NCBI GenBank assembly: GCA_030043435.1
Contig: JASHXR010000066.1
Span: forward strand, 1 to 10,744
Reading direction: 5' to 3'
Source of the DNA: Microcaldota archaeon
Lineage (GTDB): Archaea > Micrarchaeota > Micrarchaeia > Micrarchaeales > CABMGC01
DNA length: 10,744 nucleotides
The notes beneath the pieces are model-generated. The model was not told the origin of the DNA, made no database searches, and saw nothing but the letters and a program-made list of their open reading frames with translations. Every line of letters begins with the position of its first letter. Positions within the stretch are counted from its first letter, which is position 1. Positions 2,726 to 9,475 of this stretch are shown here, piece by piece. Position numbers and translations under genes: made by a program.

Positions 2726-3808
2726 TCAGTCGAAGGTGAACGTATATATCCTGAAACCTGGGCTCGCCTCTATCTCGAGCGTATGCCATCCGTATGACGG
2801 AGCTGATATTATGCTGTAAAGCCTGGGTGAGCTCACGTCCACCACTGCGTTGCCATCCACTATGTGCGCATCGCTGCCCAGGTAGTCCTGGGGCAGGCTG
2901 TTGTTGTCCAGCCTGACCACTATGCTTGCGTTGCTGGTGTTGTATGCCTCGGCCACTATGTTCACGTAAGCCGACTTGTACGTGAGGAATATTGTCGCGT
3001 TGCTCACTGCTATCATGCTGTCTTCCGCATTATACCACTCCCCGCCGAGATACGCGACGTTGGTCTGCGTGACATCGGGAATACCATAGTCAACGATGTT
3101 GCCCGGCGAGAAGACCTCGCCCCCTCCGAGGGCCTGCCGCGCCTCCCCGTATCCAAGGTAGATCTCGGGAGTGTCTATCTGCGAGAAGTTCACGCTGCTC
3201 GTCACATTTGCAAGGGAGTTGGCCACGCTGTAGCCTGCGCTCTCGAGCAGCAGCTGGATGGCGCGCTGGGTTGTGTTGTAGTTCCCGTCGCCGAACGAGA
3301 CGTACCTCACGTACCCGCTCGCGTTTATGAGGTAGTCCGCAGGCCAGTAGTGGTTGTCATAGTTGTCCCACGTCGTGTAGTTGTTGTCCAGCGCCACAGC
3401 ATACTTTATCCCGTCCCTCTGTACCGCATCGTATACGTTGGTATAGTTGTGCTCGAAGGTGAATTCAGGCGTGGAGACGCCGATGATGACGAGCCCGTTG
3501 CTCCCGTACTCGCTCTCCCATGCGTTCAGGTATGGTATCTCCAATAGGCAGTTTATGCACGAGTATGTCCAGAAGTCGACCAGCACCACCTTGCCTCGCA
3601 GCTGCGAGAGGTTCAGCGGAGGTGAGTTGATCCATGCGGCTATGCCTGCGATGGGAGGTGCGGGCCCGTAGTCCGGCAGGCTGGCCAGCGAGAGGTTCTC
3701 CCCGGCCTGCGGCGCCGTCGAACTCGACGGCAGGAAGGACACGGCCGCAGCCAGCACTATGATCACTACGACAGCAAGGAAGACCACCAGGTACGCGTTA
3801 ACTCTCAT
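2726..3808 (-). CDS. Membrane-anchored DipZ-type thioredoxin (TlpA-like) with C-terminal beta domain
   Basis: A 360-residue extracytoplasmic thiol-disulfide protein. Residues 5-26 form one hydrophobic N-terminal anchor (signal-anchor type), followed by a Ser/Pro/Ala linker. Residues about 50-200 are a TlpA/DipZ thioredoxin fold (LRGKVVLVDFWTYSCINC) with redox cysteines C84 and C87 in a CINC motif; WTYSCINC is characteristic of DipZ. Residues about 212-360 match the DipZ C-terminal beta domain, beginning TPEIYLGYGEA and ending WHTLEIEASPGFRIYTFTFD. Twelve N-X-S/T sequons lie after the anchor, consistent with a glycosylated surface protein. ATG 3808 overlaps the CcdA stop (ATGA), and GGTGAAGGG precedes it. 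It probably takes electrons from the neighbouring CcdA and reduces outside disulfides. The C-terminal domain's ligand is unknown. Confidence 0.92.
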   Translation of the reverse strand: MRVNAYLVVFLAVVVIIVLAAAVSFLPSSSTAPQAGENLSLASLPDYGPAPPIAGIAAWINSPPLNLSQLRGKVVLVDFWTYSCINCLLEIPYLNAWESEYGSNGLVIIGVSTPEFTFEHNYTNVYDAVQRDGIKYAVALDNNYTTWDNYDNHYWPADYLINASGYVRYVSFGDGNYNTTQRAIQLLLESAGYSVANSLANVTSSVNFSQIDTPEIYLGYGEARQALGGGEVFSPGNIVDYGIPDVTQTNVAYLGGEWYNAEDSMIAVSNATIFLTYKSAYVNIVAEAYNTSNASIVVRLDNNSLPQDYLGSDAHIVDGNAVVDVSSPRLYSIISAPSYGWHTLEIEASPGFRIYTFTFD

Positions 3809-4530
3809 CCCTTCACCACATCAGATACTGTGCCGCCGATATACGCGAAGTATGCTGGTACAAGGGGCAATATGCACGGCGACAAGAACGTGAGTATACC
3901 GGCAGCTATGGCGATAATGAAGTCAAGCGAGCCGTTCAGGGCCACGTAGCCGTTGGTGCTCAGCAGGAACACGGAGAGCAGCCCTATGTAGTCTGATACG
4001 ACCAGGAGCCCAAGCGCTATGAGGAGCGCGCCGCCTATGACGTTGAAGTACCTGAGGAAGCGCCCTGCGCTCTTCAGGAAGAGCGAGAACCTCGAGATGA
4101 ACGCTCCGGCGAGCAGGAACGGTATGCCGAGTCCGAGGGAGAAGGCCAGCAGGAGCAGGAAGCCGGTGCCGGGAGAGGTTATCGCCAGCGTGTAGATGGC
4201 TCCGAGTATCGGCCCCACGCACGGCGTCCATCCTATCGCGAACGCGACCCCGAACACCAATGACGAGATGAAGCTGTTGCCTGACCTCTTTACGCGTATC
4301 CTGTACTCCCCGGAAAAGAACGGTATTCTGTACCTGGCCGAGGCTATGAGAAGTATCCCGAATCCTATTATCACCACGCCCCCGATTATCCTTAGGGTGT
4401 TGGCCAGGGTCACCGCCACCCCAGCCACGAGGGTCTGGAGCAGTATGCCGACTACAGAGAAGACAAGGACAAACCCTATCACGAAGAAGACGGAATTGAG
4501 GAATATCACCTCCTCGCTCTTCAGTCTCAT
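3805..4530 (-). CDS. ccdA: CcdA/DsbD-beta-type membrane thiol transporter, circularly permuted
   Basis: A polytopic membrane protein of 241 residues that passes electrons from cytoplasmic thioredoxin to extracytoplasmic thiol proteins. Six hydrophobic segments are visible at about 7-30, 46-64, 87-116, 121-145, 158-190 and 203-230. The two signature cysteines are C104 in GWTPCVGPILGA (canonical TM4) and C219 in FLSPCILPLVPAYFAYIGG (canonical TM1). In canonical CcdA the SPCxLPLVP helix comes first; here it is last, and the protein starts with the TM2 sequence FFVIGFVLVFSVVG. Helix order is therefore 2-3-4-5-6-1. Both catalytic cysteines are kept, so it is probably functional. I chose ATG 4530; an in-frame TTG at 4629 lies upstream of the TATA box at 4573-4582 and would add 33 polar residues. 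It is translationally coupled by a 4-nt overlap to the thioredoxin gene. Confidence 0.9.
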   Translation of the reverse strand: MRLKSEEVIFLNSVFFVIGFVLVFSVVGILLQTLVAGVAVTLANTLRIIGGVVIIGFGILLIASARYRIPFFSGEYRIRVKRSGNSFISSLVFGVAFAIGWTPCVGPILGAIYTLAITSPGTGFLLLLAFSLGLGIPFLLAGAFISRFSLFLKSAGRFLRYFNVIGGALLIALGLLVVSDYIGLLSVFLLSTNGYVALNGSLDFIIAIAAGILTFLSPCILPLVPAYFAYIGGTVSDVVKG

Positions 4531-4572: not shown

Positions 4573-4582
4573 CTTTAAATAT
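4573..4582 (-). promoter_or_regulatory. TATA box of the ccdA-thioredoxin operon
   Basis: Minus strand ATATTTAAAG. Expected transcription start is near 4552, about 22 nt before ATG 4530. The leader holds only a weak Shine-Dalgarno candidate (GGGATGATGGG). Confidence 0.65.
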
Positions 4583-4718: not shown

Positions 4719-5330
4719 ATGCGACTGCGCGATGGTTTGAAGATGGACCTATGGCCTGCGTATCTGCGGGAGTCGACGAGGGCGGCGTTCGGCGCGGCAG
4801 CCCTGAGGCTTAAGACCGGGACGAGGCACCACACCTCCCTTGCTATGGTGGAGGAGAGGGCCACAGACCTGGAGCTGAACAAGGCGCACATCCAGGACTA
4901 CTCCGATACGGCAAGGTATGTCACCGCCAGGGAGATAACGTACGACCTCTTCATCTCCATATACGACGTGGACACCGGCTGGGCCGCGTCGATGAGGCCG
5001 TCGCAGCATGTAGCCAAGGGCGCGGTGCACCAGATAAACAAGGCTATAAGGGCGAAGGGCCACAGGAACCTCGAGATGAGGGTCATAGGGATGCAGGGTC
5101 CTGACCCAATCATGCAGAGCGTCATCGACACGGTGCGCTCCTCCATACCGTGCCGCCTTGCGGAGCTGGACCTCTTCGGAAACCAGACGAGGCACATAGC
5201 CCTCGACCTCAAGACCGGGTCGAGCTACGACCTCCTCCTCAACAACAAGGTCTACGGCCCTGCAGAGCTGATAACGAAGGCGACGCAGGAAGAGTTCGCG
5301 GCGAGGAGGTCAGAGCTTGCTTTTGTATAG
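4719..5330 (+). CDS. Conserved-looking hypothetical protein, 203 aa
   Basis: I do not recognise this protein. It is soluble, with no signal peptide or membrane segment, and appears mixed alpha/beta. Visible features are a basic N-terminal stretch (LRESTRAAFGAAALRLKTGTRHH), an acidic/aromatic strand YDLFISIYDVDTGW, a helix rich in His and Lys (RPSQHVAKGAVHQINKAIRAKGHR), a single cysteine in SSIPCRLAELDLFG, and a C-terminal half rich in short strands (TRHIALDLKTGSSYDLLLNNKVYG). Strong codon bias like its neighbours and a well-placed TATA box argue that it is expressed. The start is uncertain: ATG 4719 suits the TATA box, and ATG 4743 (MDLWPAYL) is an in-frame alternative. Its 3' end overlaps convergent thpR by 21 nt. 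Confidence 0.8.
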   Translation: MRLRDGLKMDLWPAYLRESTRAAFGAAALRLKTGTRHHTSLAMVEERATDLELNKAHIQDYSDTARYVTAREITYDLFISIYDVDTGWAASMRPSQHVAKGAVHQINKAIRAKGHRNLEMRVIGMQGPDPIMQSVIDTVRSSIPCRLAELDLFGNQTRHIALDLKTGSSYDLLLNNKVYGPAELITKATQEEFAARRSELAFV

Positions 5331-5837
5331 CTCCTCATAGACTGGAGCGCCGTAGCCCAGCTCGCTCCTCACGAGCGTTATCGAGTCGGCCTGGAACGAG
5401 CCGAAGTCGCAGTCCTCGTACTCCCTGGCGACCTCCATGAACGCGGCCCTCTCCCTCAGTCCGCGCACCCTCGCCATGGTGGCGTGCGGGACGAACCTCT
5501 CACCGCTGCCGACCCCGAGTCTCCTGGCCAGGTAGTCGTGCATCGAGGCCAGCCTCTCGGCCCCGGCAGCCACGCCTGCGTATACTACGCGGATGCGCTC
5601 CGGCTTGAAGAACCCGATGCCGTGCAGCGTGACCCCGAACCCCCCTCCGCCTATCGAGTCCATCGCAGCCTCTATCTCGCGCACCCTCGCCTCAGAGACC
5701 TCGCCGAAGAAGAGGAGGGTGAGGTGCAGCGCCTCCTCCCTGACAAGCGTGACCTCCTTGAACGCGAGGTACCTGGACGCGTCAAGCATGCGTGCCTTCA
5801 CCTCCCTTGGTATCTCTATCGCAGCGAAGACGCGCAT
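5310..5837 (-). CDS. thpR: RNA 2',3'-cyclic phosphodiesterase (LigT/ThpR, 2H family)
   Basis: A 175-residue 2H phosphoesterase that opens RNA 2',3'-cyclic phosphates to 2'-phosphates; some family members also ligate tRNA half-molecules in vitro, and its cellular role is in RNA end processing. Both catalytic H-x-T-x motifs are present: HLTL at H38 and HATM at H118. The N-terminus MRVFAAIEIP and the FGEV after the first motif are typical, and the length is normal for the family. ATG 5837 lies about 28-37 nt from a TATA-like element (5861-5870), implying a leaderless or nearly leaderless message. It shares a 41-bp divergent promoter region with the MetRS-beta-like gene, and its 3' end overlaps the unknown gene convergently. 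Confidence 0.93.
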   Translation of the reverse strand: MRVFAAIEIPREVKARMLDASRYLAFKEVTLVREEALHLTLLFFGEVSEARVREIEAAMDSIGGGGFGVTLHGIGFFKPERIRVVYAGVAAGAERLASMHDYLARRLGVGSGERFVPHATMARVRGLRERAAFMEVAREYEDCDFGSFQADSITLVRSELGYGAPVYEELYKSKL

Positions 5838-5838
5838 C

Positions 5839-5848
5839 CTTATTAAAT
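5839..5848 (+). promoter_or_regulatory. TATA box of the MetRS-beta-like gene cluster
   Basis: CTTATTAAAT on the plus strand, centre about 35 nt before ATG 5879; expected transcription start near 5870. It lies within 2 nt of the thpR start codon, so the two divergent promoters interlock. Confidence 0.5.
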
Positions 5849-5860
5849 GAGCCGTTCCAT

Positions 5861-5870
5861 CTTAAATACG
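5861..5870 (-). promoter_or_regulatory. TATA box of thpR
   Basis: Minus strand CGTATTTAAG, 24-33 nt upstream of ATG 5837, which would place transcription start almost at the start codon. It overlaps the expected start region of the divergent transcript. Confidence 0.5.
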
Positions 5871-5878
5871 GCTGTCTT

Positions 5879-6211
5879 ATGGTGACGTTCGATGAGTTCG
5901 CGCGGCTCGAGATCCGCGTAGGCAGGATCGTCTCCGCAGACGACCACGAGCAGGCGAGGAAGCCGATGTACCGGCTCACCGTGGACCTCGGCCCCGAGGT
6001 GGGCAAGAGGACCATAGTGGCAGGCATAAAGGCATGGTATGCCAAGGAGGAGCTCGTCGGAAAGGAGGTCGCATGCATAGTGAACCTCGACCCGAAGACG
6101 ATAGCAGGTGTGGAGTCGCGGGGCATGCTCCTGGCCGCTGGCGACGGCGTAGAGGCGCTCTCGCTCCTCACCGTGGACAGGCAGGTAAGCGAGGGCAGCA
6201 TGGTGAGGTAG
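5879..6211 (+). CDS. Free-standing tRNA-binding OB-fold protein (MetRS beta / Trbp111-CsaA type)
   Basis: A 110-residue single-domain tRNA-binding protein (EMAP-II/Trbp111-like OB fold). Signature stretches are FARLEIRVGRIVSADDHEQA, the KPMYRLTVDLG strand, RTIVAGIKAWYAKEELVGK and GVESRGMLLAAGDG. The last two are those of MetRS C-terminal domains; ARKPMYRL also recalls CsaA. Because the MetRS in this window lacks that domain, this protein is probably the MetRS beta subunit, binding in trans to improve tRNA-Met capture (inference). A CsaA-like chaperone role is the alternative. ATG 5879 begins right at the domain edge and about 9 nt after the expected transcription start; an upstream ATG at 5792 lies inside thpR and adds no domain sequence. 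It leads a plus-strand cluster with two P-loop kinases. Confidence 0.88.
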   Translation: MVTFDEFARLEIRVGRIVSADDHEQARKPMYRLTVDLGPEVGKRTIVAGIKAWYAKEELVGKEVACIVNLDPKTIAGVESRGMLLAAGDGVEALSLLTVDRQVSEGSMVR

Positions 6212-6273: not shown

Positions 6274-6861
6274 ATGATACTCTGCGTAGTGGGGCTCCAC
6301 GGTTCTGGGAAGGGCGAGGTCGCTGACATACTCTCAGGCAGGGGCTTCGCTGTCCTTGACATGGGCGACATAATAAGGGAGGAGATGGCACGGTCCGGGA
6401 TAGTTGTGACCCGGGAGACCGACCGGAGCTTCCCCGTGGAGCTGAGGGAGAAGCGGGGCAAGGACATCGTCGCCGTCCTCACCGTCGAGAAGCTGCGCAA
6501 GCTAGATTCAGATGACATAGTCCTGACCGGCATAAGGAGCACCTACGAGCTGGACTATCTCAGGAGCAAGGTGCCGTCGCTGACGCTTGTCGCGGTGGAG
6601 ACCCCCACCGAGGTCAGGTTCGAGAGGCTCAGGGCGCGCGGCAGGCCCTCTGACCCCAAGACGCTTGAGGAGTTCAACGAGAGGGACGAGAGGGAGGCCA
6701 AGGCGAACATGGGCTCGGAGAGGTACAGGAAGGCCGGCCTCAATGCGGTCATAGCCATGGCAGACTACAGGATAGCCAACTCCGGGACCAGGGACGAGCT
6801 GAAGGAGGCGGTGGGGAAGGTCCTCTCGAACATCAAGAGGAGGCAGCTCAGAAAGGCATAA
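6274..6861 (+). CDS. UPF0200 family P-loop nucleotide kinase-like protein
   Basis: A 195-residue cytoplasmic P-loop NTPase of the mainly archaeal UPF0200 family, related to dephospho-CoA and adenylate kinases; substrate is unknown. The Walker A motif is G7-LHGSGKG-14 directly after the first strand MILCVV, with the G-K-G ending typical of the family. MGDIIREEM (about residues 30-38), the strand DDIVLTGIRSTYELDYLR, and a lid-like RFERLRARGRPSDP followed by FNERDEREAKANMG fit the family. ATG 6274 was chosen because the P-loop strand starts immediately; GGAG lies 10 nt upstream. In-frame ATG 6223 would add 17 residues unlike the family. It lies 62 nt after the MetRS-beta-like gene and 63 nt before another P-loop gene, probably in one operon, as I see no TATA box in either gap. 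Confidence 0.88.
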   Translation: MILCVVGLHGSGKGEVADILSGRGFAVLDMGDIIREEMARSGIVVTRETDRSFPVELREKRGKDIVAVLTVEKLRKLDSDDIVLTGIRSTYELDYLRSKVPSLTLVAVETPTEVRFERLRARGRPSDPKTLEEFNERDEREAKANMGSERYRKAGLNAVIAMADYRIANSGTRDELKEAVGKVLSNIKRRQLRKA

Positions 6862-6924
6862 ATTGGCGCGGTGCGCATACCTACCATACAGGCGCCTTGC
6901 AGAGATGCGCCAAGACGTGGTAAG

Positions 6925-7671
6925 ATGGCAGATTGCGAAACCCGCCAGCCCGGAAGGCCGACTCCCTCCATACCCTCATTCGTCTTCATAGGCGTTACCG
7001 GGTCGGGGAAGTCCACTTACTCCGACTACCTCAAGTTCCGCCTTGAGGAGGAGTTCGGCATAGCCGTCTACAGGCCCTCGTTCTCGAAGCGGATAGAGGA
7101 GCTGGCGAGGGAGCTCTTCGGCATGAGGGAGTACGACAGGACGCTGCTGCAGGACATAGGCAACAAGATGCGCGAGCTCGACCCTGCTGTCTGGGCTAAG
7201 CACATAATAAGGGACCTGAAGGCCAACGACCGCCTTCCTGTCGTCTGCGACGGCCTGCGCAAGCCAGAGGAGCTCGAGGCCTTCAAGGAGGAGCTTAAGG
7301 ACTTCGTTGTCATCAGGCTCGAGGCCGACGAGAAGGCGCTCTTCGAGCATTATAGGAAGAAGTACGGAAGGTATCCAAGCAAGGATGAGATGACGAACCC
7401 TGCCGAGACCTCCATCGCGATGCTGCACTCCGACATGACGCTGTTCAACGATTACGACCCTGCCAAGATGGACAGGCAGGTAGGCGAGCTGGTCAAGGCG
7501 GTGAAGGAAGGCACGCTCCAGAGGCTCATAGACCGCTGCAAGCCCGGCATCGTCTACAGGCAGCCATGGGACGAGGAGTTCGTAAGGCACAACAAGTTCT
7601 CCAATCCCGTAAATGCGAACAACTTCAGGAAGATAGAGGAGATAGTCTCCGAGACTACTGAAGAGAAATAG
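6925..7671 (+). CDS. P-loop kinase resembling deoxynucleoside monophosphate kinase
   Basis: A 248-residue P-loop kinase-like protein. Walker A is G23-VTGSGKST-31. The pattern YDRTLLQDIGNKMRELDPAVWAKHI resembles the LLQ-IG-R-D-P-W stretch of phage-type dNMP kinases, and the strand LPVVCDGLRKPEELEAFK fits the Asp/Arg site of that fold. From residue about 135 a charged, helical region follows (EHYRKKYGRYPSKDE), then a C-terminal extension (CKPGIVYRQPWDEEFVRHNKFSNPV) that I do not recognise. In some archaea a similar kinase domain is fused to dCMP deaminase; no deaminase is attached here. ATG 6925 is preceded by GTGGTAAG; GTG 6871 would add 18 residues. Probable role is nucleotide phosphorylation or salvage; the substrate cannot be told from the sequence. 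Confidence 0.8.
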   Translation: MADCETRQPGRPTPSIPSFVFIGVTGSGKSTYSDYLKFRLEEEFGIAVYRPSFSKRIEELARELFGMREYDRTLLQDIGNKMRELDPAVWAKHIIRDLKANDRLPVVCDGLRKPEELEAFKEELKDFVVIRLEADEKALFEHYRKKYGRYPSKDEMTNPAETSIAMLHSDMTLFNDYDPAKMDRQVGELVKAVKEGTLQRLIDRCKPGIVYRQPWDEEFVRHNKFSNPVNANNFRKIEEIVSETTEEK

Positions 7672-7736
7672 CCGCAGCTTGCCTTCCGGGTCTGCTGTCC
7701 GGCCTGCGCAGAGCGAAAGACCTTGCGTAAGCTGGA

Positions 7737-7766
7737 GCCGTGCACCACCCCTCCCAAATGCACGGC
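7737..7766. repeat. 8-bp inverted repeat between convergent genes
   Basis: GCCGTGCA (7737-7744) and TGCACGGC (7759-7766) are perfect complements around a 14-nt loop. It lies in the 114-nt gap between the ends of the dNMP-kinase-like gene and the winged-helix gene, where a stem could form in either transcript. There is no T-tract, so it is not a standard archaeal terminator; it may be a 3'-end stabilising hairpin. Confidence 0.5.
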
Positions 7767-7785
7767 CCCGCGCGCTTACACACAT

Positions 7786-8118
7786 TCATACGCTTATCTG
7801 TGCCACCCTCCTCACATCGCAGTTCACCCCTGCATGAGTCATGCTAGCCCTTAACACCTTCATCCCACCCTCTGTCAGCGCAAGCGGCCTGTACGCCTCA
7901 CCCTTCTCGGTGAAGTCCAGCACCCCCTCCTTCTTGAGCTTCTTCAGCGTATACCAGATGCCGCTCTGCGACATCGCGTAGTTCTCCGATGCGAATTCGA
8001 CGAAGTCTGTGGCAGTAGGTATCTCGTTCAGCCCTATCTCGGCGAGCAGGAGCATCTCCTTCTCGCTAAGCCTGAGCCTCGCAAAATCCACACTACCCAT
8101 GTTTTTGTCCACTTGCAT
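7786..8118 (-). CDS. Small winged-helix DNA-binding protein
   Basis: A 110-residue protein consistent with one winged helix-turn-helix domain. Residues 18-47 (LSEKEMLLLAEIGLNEIPTATDFVEFASEN) would be helices 1-2. MSQSGIWYTLKKLKKEGVLDF (49-69) looks like the recognition helix with the start of the wing, and GEAYRPLALTEGGMKVL completes the wing and last helix. The pattern is PadR/MarR-like but I cannot assign a family. It is probably a local transcription regulator with no visible ligand domain. The start is ATG 8118 (GGTG 7-10 nt upstream); ATG 8100 (MGSVDF) is also plausible, and the longer frame from 8172 lies upstream of the likely TATA element. It faces the prepilin peptidase gene across a 499-nt gap and may regulate it or itself. 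Confidence 0.75.
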   Translation of the reverse strand: MQVDKNMGSVDFARLRLSEKEMLLLAEIGLNEIPTATDFVEFASENYAMSQSGIWYTLKKLKKEGVLDFTEKGEAYRPLALTEGGMKVLRASMTHAGVNCDVRRVAQISV

Positions 8119-8348
8119 AAAGAACACCGAAGAGAAGAGAGTTAAGAGCTTTATGCAGCGGACGCACCACAATAATTGCTATTGCGTATGTGCGTGGCCT
8201 TTACTGGAAATGGTGAAACTACCATCGAGCCCGTCGTCGCAGCCAAAAATTGCGCTCGGATAGTTGCCATATCTACAGCCCATTCATCCTTCATTGGTCT
8301 TTCATTCCTTCCTGATTCCTTCCATCCTACAATACACTCCCCAGTCAG
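8119..8348. other. Upstream non-coding region with pyrimidine-rich tract
   Basis: No credible gene on either strand. The first part holds the winged-helix promoter and a small 5-bp hairpin (ATGGT/ACCAT, 8210-8225). From about 8281 to 8345 the plus strand is strongly pyrimidine-rich and internally repetitive, with ATTCCTTCC twice at a period of 11 (8304-8312 and 8315-8323). It is clearly less GC-rich than the coding DNA around it. The tract ends just before the strong TATA box at 8349. Confidence 0.6.
8148..8157 (-). promoter_or_regulatory. Possible TATA element of the winged-helix gene
   Basis: Minus strand CATAAAGC-like element, centre about 35 nt upstream of ATG 8118. It is a poor match to box A but the best in the right place. 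Confidence 0.35.
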
Positions 8349-8358
8349 ATATTTAAAC
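8349..8358 (+). promoter_or_regulatory. Strong TATA box upstream of a structured, non-coding stretch
   Basis: ATATTTAAAC, among the best box A matches in the window. Expected transcription start is near 8378, where a nested hairpin begins. No convincing protein-coding gene follows within 230 nt, so it suggests a small RNA or a long leader. Confidence 0.6.
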
Positions 8359-8378
8359 CTTCCCTACAAGATGGCGCT

Positions 8379-8488
8379 ATGCACGCCCTTCGCGCCGCCT
8401 ACCGAAGTATAACGTGCATGAATCGCGCTGTAGACGTTGAGAATCGCATCATGCGTCCCATGCGCGGTAAACCTGCGCAGGGAAAGGG
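8379..8488 (+). ncRNA. Candidate structured small RNA
   Basis: The predicted transcript begins with ATGCACG (8379-8385) pairing perfectly with CGTGCAT (8413-8419). Nested inside is CTTCG (8388-8392) with CGAAG (8403-8407) around a 10-nt loop. Further on are CGCAT/ATGCG around 8445-8455 and a second hairpin, TGCGC (8461-8465) with GCGCA (8475-8479). I find no C/D box motifs, no H/ACA tail and no tRNA T-arm, and it does not look like SRP or RNase P RNA. The 3' end is unknown; the second TATA box at 8489 suggests it ends before that. It could also be the start of one long leader for the prepilin peptidase. Confidence 0.35.
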
Positions 8489-8498
8489 CTTTATATGC
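8489..8498 (+). promoter_or_regulatory. TATA box of the prepilin peptidase leader
   Basis: CTTTATATGC, expected transcription start near 8519. This leaves a leader of about 100 nt before the TTG at 8618, much longer than the roughly 0-25 nt inferred for other genes here. Confidence 0.5.
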
Positions 8499-8518
8499 GC
8501 GGTATCATATACGAGGGT

Positions 8519-8617
8519 AACTCCCCTGCAAGCGGACTCGGCGCAGGGGTATGCGCGCGCGGAGGTCCGGCATCGAAAGTGCCTCAAAGGCGCGCGTCCA
8601 AACGCGCATGTGATCAC
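8519..8617 (+). promoter_or_regulatory. Hairpin-rich leader of the prepilin peptidase gene
   Basis: Three perfect hairpins are visible: CCCCTGC/GCAGGGG (8523-8529 with 8543-8549), GGCAT/GTGCC with one G-T pair (8569-8573 with 8579-8583) and GCGCGT/ACGCGC (8592-8597 with 8602-8607, 4-nt loop). ATGCGCG (8551-8557) can instead pair with CGCGCAT (8603-8609), which excludes the last hairpin. The alternative stem ends directly against the likely Shine-Dalgarno GTGATC (8610-8615). The arrangement resembles a translational switch, but no known riboswitch class is recognised. Confidence 0.4.
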
Positions 8618-9475
8618 TTGTTACTCGACATAATCAGGGTGGCCGCGCTCCTAGCAGTGACGCTCGCATACGCGCTCTTCGACGTCTTCAACAAGAGGAA
8701 CGTGCCCAACGTCTTCGCGTACGCGACGGTAGTGGCCGGCGTACTCATCACGCTGACGTACGGGCTCCACACGATAGAGCTTAGCGTGCTCTTCGCCGTG
8801 ATAATAGCTGCGATAGGGTATCCCACCTACAAATACGGCGTTCTCGGCGGCGGGGACCTCTTCGAGTTCGTCTTCATAAGCCTGGTCATGCCAATGCAGC
8901 TGGTCCCACTCCTGCTCAGCGTGCCGCAGTTCTCGCTCCCCTTCATCCTCTCGGTATTCATCGCCACCGGCTATGCGACCATGATTCTTGCGCCTGCGTA
9001 TTATATACTCAAGGCAAAGAGGAAGCTCGGCCGGGTACCTATCGAAGGGAGGAACGTCCTTTCGGCAGTCGTGCTCCTCGCCGCGTATGCTGCGCTCATA
9101 ATCGTCCTCAACGTGGTGGTGGACTACTCCCTCACAGGCACGCTGATACTCCTCCTCGCCGCGATACCTTCCGCGCTCATACTGGTTTACAAGAAGGCGA
9201 TATACGAGGGCATGACCCTCTCCGTGTATCCGTCGGAGCTGGAGAGCGGCGACATGATAGCGACCAACATGATGGGCGCGAGGGACCTGGCGTACTTCAG
9301 GAAGAGGTCGAGGCGCTTCGGCAGGCTGGCCACCAGGGCCCTCATCTCAGAGATAAAGCACGCCAGGAGGAAGATACCGGTATACAAGAACGCAGTGCCG
9401 CTCGCGCTCTTCACCTTCATAGGCGTAGTGGTCACTCTGCTCGTCGGCAACCTGATGCTCCTTATACTCGTATGA
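8618..9475 (+). CDS. Archaeal prepilin/preflagellin peptidase (A24 family, FlaK/PibD-like)
   Basis: A polytopic membrane aspartic protease of 285 residues that removes class III signal peptides from type IV pilins or archaellins. The two catalytic aspartates are D22 in LFDVFNKRNVPN after TM1 and D80 in the G-x-G-D motif GVLGGGDLFEF. These positions agree with PibD (Asp23, Asp80) and FlaK (Asp18, Asp79), which supports TTG 8618 over the in-frame ATG 8495 that would add 41 non-hydrophobic residues. GTGATC precedes the TTG at close spacing. Hydrophobic segments continue through residue about 195, then a soluble loop (SELESGDMIATNMMGARDLAYFRKRSRRFGR), and a last helix at the C-terminus. No pilin, archaellin or assembly ATPase gene lies nearby, so its substrates are elsewhere in the genome. 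Confidence 0.92.
   Translation: MLLDIIRVAALLAVTLAYALFDVFNKRNVPNVFAYATVVAGVLITLTYGLHTIELSVLFAVIIAAIGYPTYKYGVLGGGDLFEFVFISLVMPMQLVPLLLSVPQFSLPFILSVFIATGYATMILAPAYYILKAKRKLGRVPIEGRNVLSAVVLLAAYAALIIVLNVVVDYSLTGTLILLLAAIPSALILVYKKAIYEGMTLSVYPSELESGDMIATNMMGARDLAYFRKRSRRFGRLATRALISEIKHARRKIPVYKNAVPLALFTFIGVVVTLLVGNLMLLILV

Follow-up and report, generated by a model that had tools for sequence, protein, structure and literature searches.

The stretch of DNA studied here, called the window in the following, is the whole contig JASHXR010000066.1 (10,744 nt) of a fragmented metagenome-assembled genome (MAG) of a Microcaldota archaeon (GCA_030043435.1; 125 contigs, 70.6 % complete). On the minus strand at 3805..4530 it carries a ccdA gene for a protein of 241 amino acids, in which the transmembrane helices (TM) follow each other in the order TM2-TM3-TM4-TM5-TM6-TM1. 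Judged by its sequence, this protein is a circularly permuted CcdA homologue and not a colinear member of the family. We give a probability of roughly 0.86 to the reading as a whole, i.e. that it is a genuine CcdA, permuted, with the same helix bundle and with an electron path to the DipZ-type partner with a CINC motif that is encoded by the next gene. The helix order, the homology of the segments, their conservation, the loop charges, the neighbouring gene and the distribution were observed directly; from these we infer that the fold, the electron path and the function are those of CcdA, and the permuted protein most likely does the job of CcdA.

The Thermus CcdA (5vkv) is matched by two segments of the protein in swapped order. 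In phmmer, residues 11-190 correspond to chain 41-211 (85.9 bits), and residues 201-234 to chain 2-35 (29.1 bits, i-E 7.3e-06). An earlier note on the window had proposed that the SPC helix stands last, after the WTPC helix, and that the N-terminus begins with the sequence that normally follows TM1. Both proposals hold: C104 lies in the TM4 active-site motif WTPC (W101-C104, 4219..4230), C219 in the TM1 active-site motif SPC (S217-C219, 3874..3882), and residue 11 aligns to position 41 of 5vkv. The Pfam family DsbD_TM (PF02683) also gives two out-of-order matches. Profile positions 45-216 correspond to residues 10-179, the whole protein scoring 48.9 bits against a cut-off of 27.1, and the C-terminal piece, the sole piece listed in the six-frame genome search, corresponds to profile 7-40 (17.6 bits, under the family cut-off). 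Profile 45-216 thus precedes 7-40 in the chain, which is not the linear TM1-to-TM6 order of the family. When the C-terminal part is placed first, a single DsbD_TM stretch from 7 to 216 is obtained with 56.6 bits, in agreement with the earlier expectation that joining the C-terminus to the N-terminus restores the canonical order. Two swapped segments, each present once and continuous when rejoined, are what defines a natural circular permutation. A six-frame search of the window finds the motif SPCxLP once, at 3882, and the open frame of 93 residues that precedes the ATG does not contain it; TM1 has therefore moved and was neither missed nor doubled, as had been argued when permutation was preferred to duplication.

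The ccdA gene starts with the ATG at 4530 and stops at 3805-3807. Its TM2-TM6 core (residues 5-192, 3955..4518) is delimited by the 5vkv and DsbD_TM matches and by the predicted helices, and the alignment of homologues places an external TM6-TM1 linker at about residues 190-199 (3934..3963). The relocated TM1, with SPCILPLVPAYFAYIGG, comprises residues 200-233 (3832..3933), the part that corresponds to 5vkv 2-35 and DsbD_TM 7-40. A short N-terminal tail preceding (I/V)FLNSVFFV is similar in most listed homologues. The active-site W, T, P and C of TM4 are invariant in an alignment of 66 rows (A1), and W, P and C in one of 130 rows (A2); both active-site cysteines, in the SPCxLP and W(T/S)PC helices, are invariant across the 130 aligned permuted proteins. 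The spacing from the TM4 cysteine to the TM1 cysteine varies little within the list of each of the three queries (113-120, exactly 127 and 121-128 residues). As a separate observation, the TM1 cysteine is replaced (SPFILP) in P0360, a Patescibacteria-type homologue.

The same order is found well outside the window. In the homologue list of the window protein (the best 120 of 7855 hits, own record included), the WTPC helix comes before the SPC helix in 119 of 119 listed homologues, at 59-74 % identity. Matches were found in 17 of 98 near genomes, own genome included, and in 50 of the 301 genomes of a phylum scan. Two families (f1 and f2) account for 24 of these 50; in 21 of the 24, counting the window, the match is colinear across almost the entire protein, in one the same order is spread over a pair of contigs, and the last two have fragments. 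The remaining 26 matching genomes belong to other families of the same class, and there 22 are canonical, with the TM1 piece upstream of the core, and four have no assignable order; the eight loci of these other families that were labelled by motif order (L108-L115) were all canonical. Canonical cores in the phylum scan are 29-48 % identical to the window protein. Truncated remnants of permuted ccdA were seen in Micrarchaeota, at 5001-5342 of L045 (also in L017) and in L018; they break off close to TM4 or some 40 residues in, which is consistent with a patchy presence of the gene.

The loops carry charges that fit a chain with both termini inside. Over 120 homologues, the mean number of lysines and arginines is 0.13, 0.01 and 0.00 in the loops expected outside and 1.50, 4.74, 4.16 and 1.83 in those expected inside, and the linker columns (residues 190-202) contain no lysine or arginine in 120 of 120. 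The earlier note had put the cut in the cytoplasmic TM1-TM2 loop and had the outer ends joined; the charge pattern agrees with this placement, the topology as such being a prediction. The permuted chain would accordingly begin within what used to be the cytoplasmic loop between TM1 and TM2, and a short linker that lacks positive charge would connect the former outer ends behind TM6 and in front of TM1. The helix bundle is most likely the same, with N- and C-termini both on the inside. In the AlphaFold2 (AF2) model the core helices are 5-35, 41-66, 86-118, 120-147, 156-178 and 181-192, and the TM1 region is helical at 200-215 and 223-240 with a break at LSPCILP. This monomer model is of moderate confidence only. 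It is more confident than a first model, which gave no significant Foldseek match and reached a tied Z for 5vkv in sequential alignment, and discriminated no better.

The next gene downstream on the same strand (2726..3808) encodes a thioredoxin-type protein with CINC (C84, C87) and a C-terminal Thioredoxin_10 domain (PF17991, 5.9e-23; PF00578, 1.4e-10). The stop of ccdA and the start of this gene share ATGA at 3805..3808, the 4-nt overlap from which the earlier note had fixed the gene end. DipZ is a CcdA-like domain fused to a thioredoxin and a C-terminal domain, the fusion being mycobacterial. The partner has both the thioredoxin-type and the Thioredoxin_10 domain, and its best match among solved structures is DipZ (2hyx, E 2.5e-55; 5cyy is also a DipZ match); unlike DipZ, the window has two separate genes, overlapping by four nucleotides, in place of a single chain fused to CcdA. 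If the C-terminus of the permuted CcdA is inside, a direct C-terminal fusion would place the thioredoxin on the wrong side. The N-terminal segment of the partner is hydrophobic and was judged by eye to be a membrane anchor. Electrons would pass from a cytoplasmic thioredoxin to the C104/C219 pair, on to the membrane-anchored CINC partner and from there to thiols outside. The genome has one gene for a candidate cytoplasmic thioredoxin, and no match to VKOR or to cytochrome c assembly was found in it, a weak negative given the completeness of the MAG.

Both the order and the ccdA-thioredoxin pair were found in related archaeal genomes, where the earlier note had suggested to search. Of 42 permuted loci (several genomes being counted twice), 38 have the partner as the next downstream gene, on the same strand. 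It is missing at L007, which is cut by the contig end, L029, L044 and L048; at L103 only the thioredoxin part is in reach, and at L024 and L102 the partner is in two frames. Among archaeal canonical loci it stands immediately downstream in 12 of 15 (missing at L039, L108 and L115; thioredoxin part only at L042). Canonical archaeal pairs of this kind, from other Micrarchaeota families, Nitrosopumilus and Woesearchaeota, have the same partner next downstream and differ in that their ccdA is TM1-first. The distances between CcdA cores correlate with those between partners (Mantel r 0.859, 0 of 2000 shuffles) in a set of 36 loci, which counts each locus under one id only and leaves out the weaker matches to the partner. 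The permuted locus L035 and the canonical locus L110 are nearest neighbours in both their ccdA and their partner genes. A canonical-order CcdA and a CINC thioredoxin in one open frame were found in the Patescibacteria sample (L251, genome G325), the TM1 motif there being AAPCIWP; the canonical-order fusion and the DipZ-like window partner are the two likenesses to DipZ seen here. In genome G1073 a permuted ccdA with a CINC partner (L245, 1515-3399) is followed 4.5 kb on by a canonical ccdA with a CPPC partner (6815-8980). In genome G596 each permuted copy (L246, L247) is followed by a gene with FQCPFC, which is not a DipZ-type partner and which, by its look, we take to be DsbA-like.

Other explanations of the window protein have to be weighed against this reading. 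An artefact of assembly or gene calling, the real gene being TM1-first, might be suspected in a window that is the entire contig of so fragmented a MAG. The chance of this is practically nil: the 119 listed homologues and independent genomes and records share the order, two permuted copies lie on a single 4.40-Mb contig of the Chloroflexota sample, and a second SPC helix is absent from every frame. The earlier opinion that an assembly error was improbable is borne out by these homologues and by 20 colinear relatives in the phylum. The same order in independent genomes already refutes the artefact, and an assembly error, a missed N-terminal helix and a helix duplication are ruled out by the homologues, the phylum scan and the six-frame motif search. 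It is also very improbable that the permuted protein is a mere relative that functions differently, e.g. as a sulfite exporter (TauE/SafE), as some source names say (others say CcdA) and as might be thought from NCBIfam matches that are all below threshold. Against this, both catalytic cysteines and their motifs are retained, the CINC thioredoxin partner is adjacent, and canonical CcdA proteins that have the same partner are among the near relatives. The moved helix could pack in the neighbouring subunit of a domain-swapped dimer, a possibility left by the short linker and the moderately confident monomer model; we regard it as quite unlikely, as the cysteine spacing is narrow within each query list and a simple closed bundle would account for the loop charges. 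A permuted CcdA in the same closed bundle thus remains the preferred reading.

Permuted genes also occur outside Micrarchaeota. By record title they were found in Aenigmatarchaeota, archaeon GW2011_AR5, archaeon PL23a, Diapherotrites (L035) and Woesearchaeota (L038), and among bacteria in Ryanbacteria (L044; Patescibacteria) and Chloroflexi (L048; Chloroflexota). With the Ryanbacteria protein as query, 119 of 120 listed homologues, own record included, were TM2-first; the remaining one has lost the TM1 cysteine motif, so its order is not readable by motif. The list of the Chloroflexi query contained 66 TM2-first, 50 canonical and three TM4-first proteins and one without readable order, of 120. 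A wider motif was used for this labelling, a stricter version having failed to label 12 proteins in the second list and 6 in the third. Around L038, 51 of 279 genomes matched at E<=1e-15, and 27 of the 51 were colinear to residue 240 or beyond; around L035, 12 of 87 genomes matched, six of them permuted. The 44 loci taken from these two samples (L201-L244) were labelled by script as 22 permuted and 22 canonical.

In Chloroflexota, at least 20 of 301 genomes have a stop-free match that runs from TM4-TM6 into TM1. Among the matches listed, it starts at TM2 in 15 of these 20 genomes and later, before TM4, in five, all five being permuted by motif order (L144, L158, L178, L249, L250). Genome G596 has its two permuted copies and one canonical copy on the 4.40-Mb contig. 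Some TM2-first CcdA proteins of Chloroflexota type (P0192, P0196, P0214 and L139/L174) have about 100 extra residues between TM3 and TM4, which by eye are apparently additional membrane helices. In the Patescibacteria sample 66 of 286 genomes matched the Ryanbacteria protein, and the source genome alone was colinear over the whole query. Nine other Patescibacteria loci comprised eight canonical by motif and one without assignable order. A weak junction-spanning match in G325, tried as a permuted gene, proved to be the canonical CcdA fused to a DipZ-type thioredoxin mentioned above, and G498 and G537 gave weak matches containing stops. It was the protein search that supplied the many permuted Patescibacteria relatives, so among the sampled genomes the permuted form is in the minority.

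A second cut site was found in three proteins of the Chloroflexi query list (P0190, P0210 and P0219), on which the order TM4-TM5-TM6-TM1-TM2-TM3 rests. In P0219, residues 17-119 correspond to 5vkv chain 113-211 and residues 144-239 to chain 6-93; in Pfam, 144-242 correspond to DsbD_TM 6-103 and 13-104 to DsbD_2 117-198. With P0219 as query, no stop-free colinear match over the whole query was present among the matches listed for the 301 Chloroflexota genomes. Intermediates of permutation, tandem or partly duplicated, were not found among 359 listed homologues (none of which has a TM1 motif at each end) and the suspected tandem loci. The latter were stop-containing Chloroflexota matches considered as tandem ccdA-ccdA; each of the loci L162-L165 turned out to hold a single TM2-first gene and each of L166-L170 a single canonical one, and the upstream similarity at L166, a candidate second ccdA, sits in an unrelated open frame that has no CcdA motifs.

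The helix order appears, from the trees of the sequences, to have changed repeatedly within the CcdA family. Trees were built from TM2-TM6 core columns filled in more than 70 % of rows; proteins lacking a clear motif pair were excluded and the three TM4-first proteins were dropped. The minimum number of order changes was 7 with 80 rows and 10 with 85 rows, the latter set having lost 12 long-branched or redundant rows of the earlier one and gained others. It was 7 for Chloroflexota with outgroups (61 rows) and 5 for archaea and Patescibacteria with outgroups (55 rows). In the approximately unbiased (AU) test, a single clade of all permuted rows was rejected in two row sets (p 6.3e-5 and p 1.75e-198). 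The largest Chloroflexota set rejected a single Chloroflexota clade (p 0.00128) and the largest archaeal and Patescibacteria set a single clade there (p 0.00923; 0.0145 when one long branch was removed), these widest-sampling values having been obtained after earlier looks at smaller sets, when sampling had been enlarged and the test repeated. In Chloroflexota, 64 of 65 TM1 sequences are nearer to canonical ones of their own group than to archaeal permuted ones, which agrees with permutation in place. These results suggest at least four changes of helix order, some of which may be reversals or recombination. It is likely that the CcdA fold has been naturally circularly permuted several times, at two loops, in archaea and in bacteria, with the archaeal operon partner kept, and that the permuted form exists beside the canonical one, sometimes in the same genome (G1073; G596). 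We infer that the direction was from canonical to permuted. The change in the DNA may have come about by duplication and then trimming, or by fission and fusion.

A single ancient permutation that spread by transfer, with reversions or with recombination between permuted and canonical genes, is a possible but less probable account. Several results weigh on its side. The smaller sets did not reject a single clade of archaea and Patescibacteria (p 0.246 and 0.171) or of Chloroflexota (p 0.145 and 0.0737), and the Micrarchaeota-type rows together with the Woesearchaeota and Patescibacteria permuted rows alone were compatible with one clade (p 0.404), as was a subset of seven Chloroflexota rows (p 0.161). 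Further AU selections gave p 0.223 for another row set and p 0.395 for four rows. The TM1 sequences of archaea and Patescibacteria (137 of 245) favour neither account. Set against these are the rejection of one clade of all permuted rows, the rejections within each group at the widest sampling, the existence of the other cut site in the three TM4-first proteins, and the fact that a reversal would require the same kind of event. Several permutations are for these reasons preferred to one.

Soluble proteins offer known examples of natural circular permutation. The authors of a 2020 paper on membrane-protein symmetry write that, as far as they know, no such case had been observed among membrane proteins; the engineered rhodopsin permutants cited there are like the window protein in having reordered helices in a polytopic membrane protein, and differ in being engineered, whereas the present case is natural (PMC7162841). 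A text on natural permutation names duplication with trimming and fission with fusion as models, and describes the membrane-bound enzyme transhydrogenase, whose domains stand in permuted order (PMC3320104). Permutation at the domain level being already known from that enzyme, the novelty here is the reordering of helices inside one membrane domain. No description of such a case was found in the literature on CcdA, DsbD or Micrarchaeota and permutation, subscription papers being mostly outside the coverage of the search.

CcdA has six helices and has been called the smallest elevator-type protein; a motion of TM1 and TM4 within an O-shaped scaffold has been proposed (PMC7329351). Like the Thermus and other canonical CcdA proteins, the window protein has the two cysteine helices (SPCxLP and WTPC) and is homologous to them in all its segments, but it has TM1 last, and its termini should be inside and not outside. 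As the natural permutants lack the link between TM1 and TM2 and have gained one between TM6 and TM1, they test which connections an elevator mechanism needs. Termini on the other side, as expected here, bear on membrane insertion and on the separateness of CcdA from the external thioredoxin. Ready-made comparisons are available, as the same type of partner accompanies canonical genes in some loci and permuted genes in others. A membrane protein that has been reordered in nature and still has its usual partner gene beside it, like the one of the window, is a rarity. In practice, colinear profile searches score permuted ccdA genes only partly.

A candidate TATA-like element, ATTTAAAG, lies on the minus strand at 4573..4580, 43-50 nt upstream of the ccdA ATG, and was recognized by eye only. 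Neither Pfam nor NCBIfam gave a match for a 203-residue open frame at 4719-5330 on the plus strand. On the strand of the thioredoxin gene and downstream of it, 970-2650 encodes a DUF711 protein and an adjacent ACT-domain protein. The plus strand carries a methionyl-tRNA synthetase gene cut by the contig end (2-967), a separate tRNA_bind domain gene (5792-6211) and a Peptidase_A24 gene of the prepilin peptidase type (8495-9475, E 8.5e-07).
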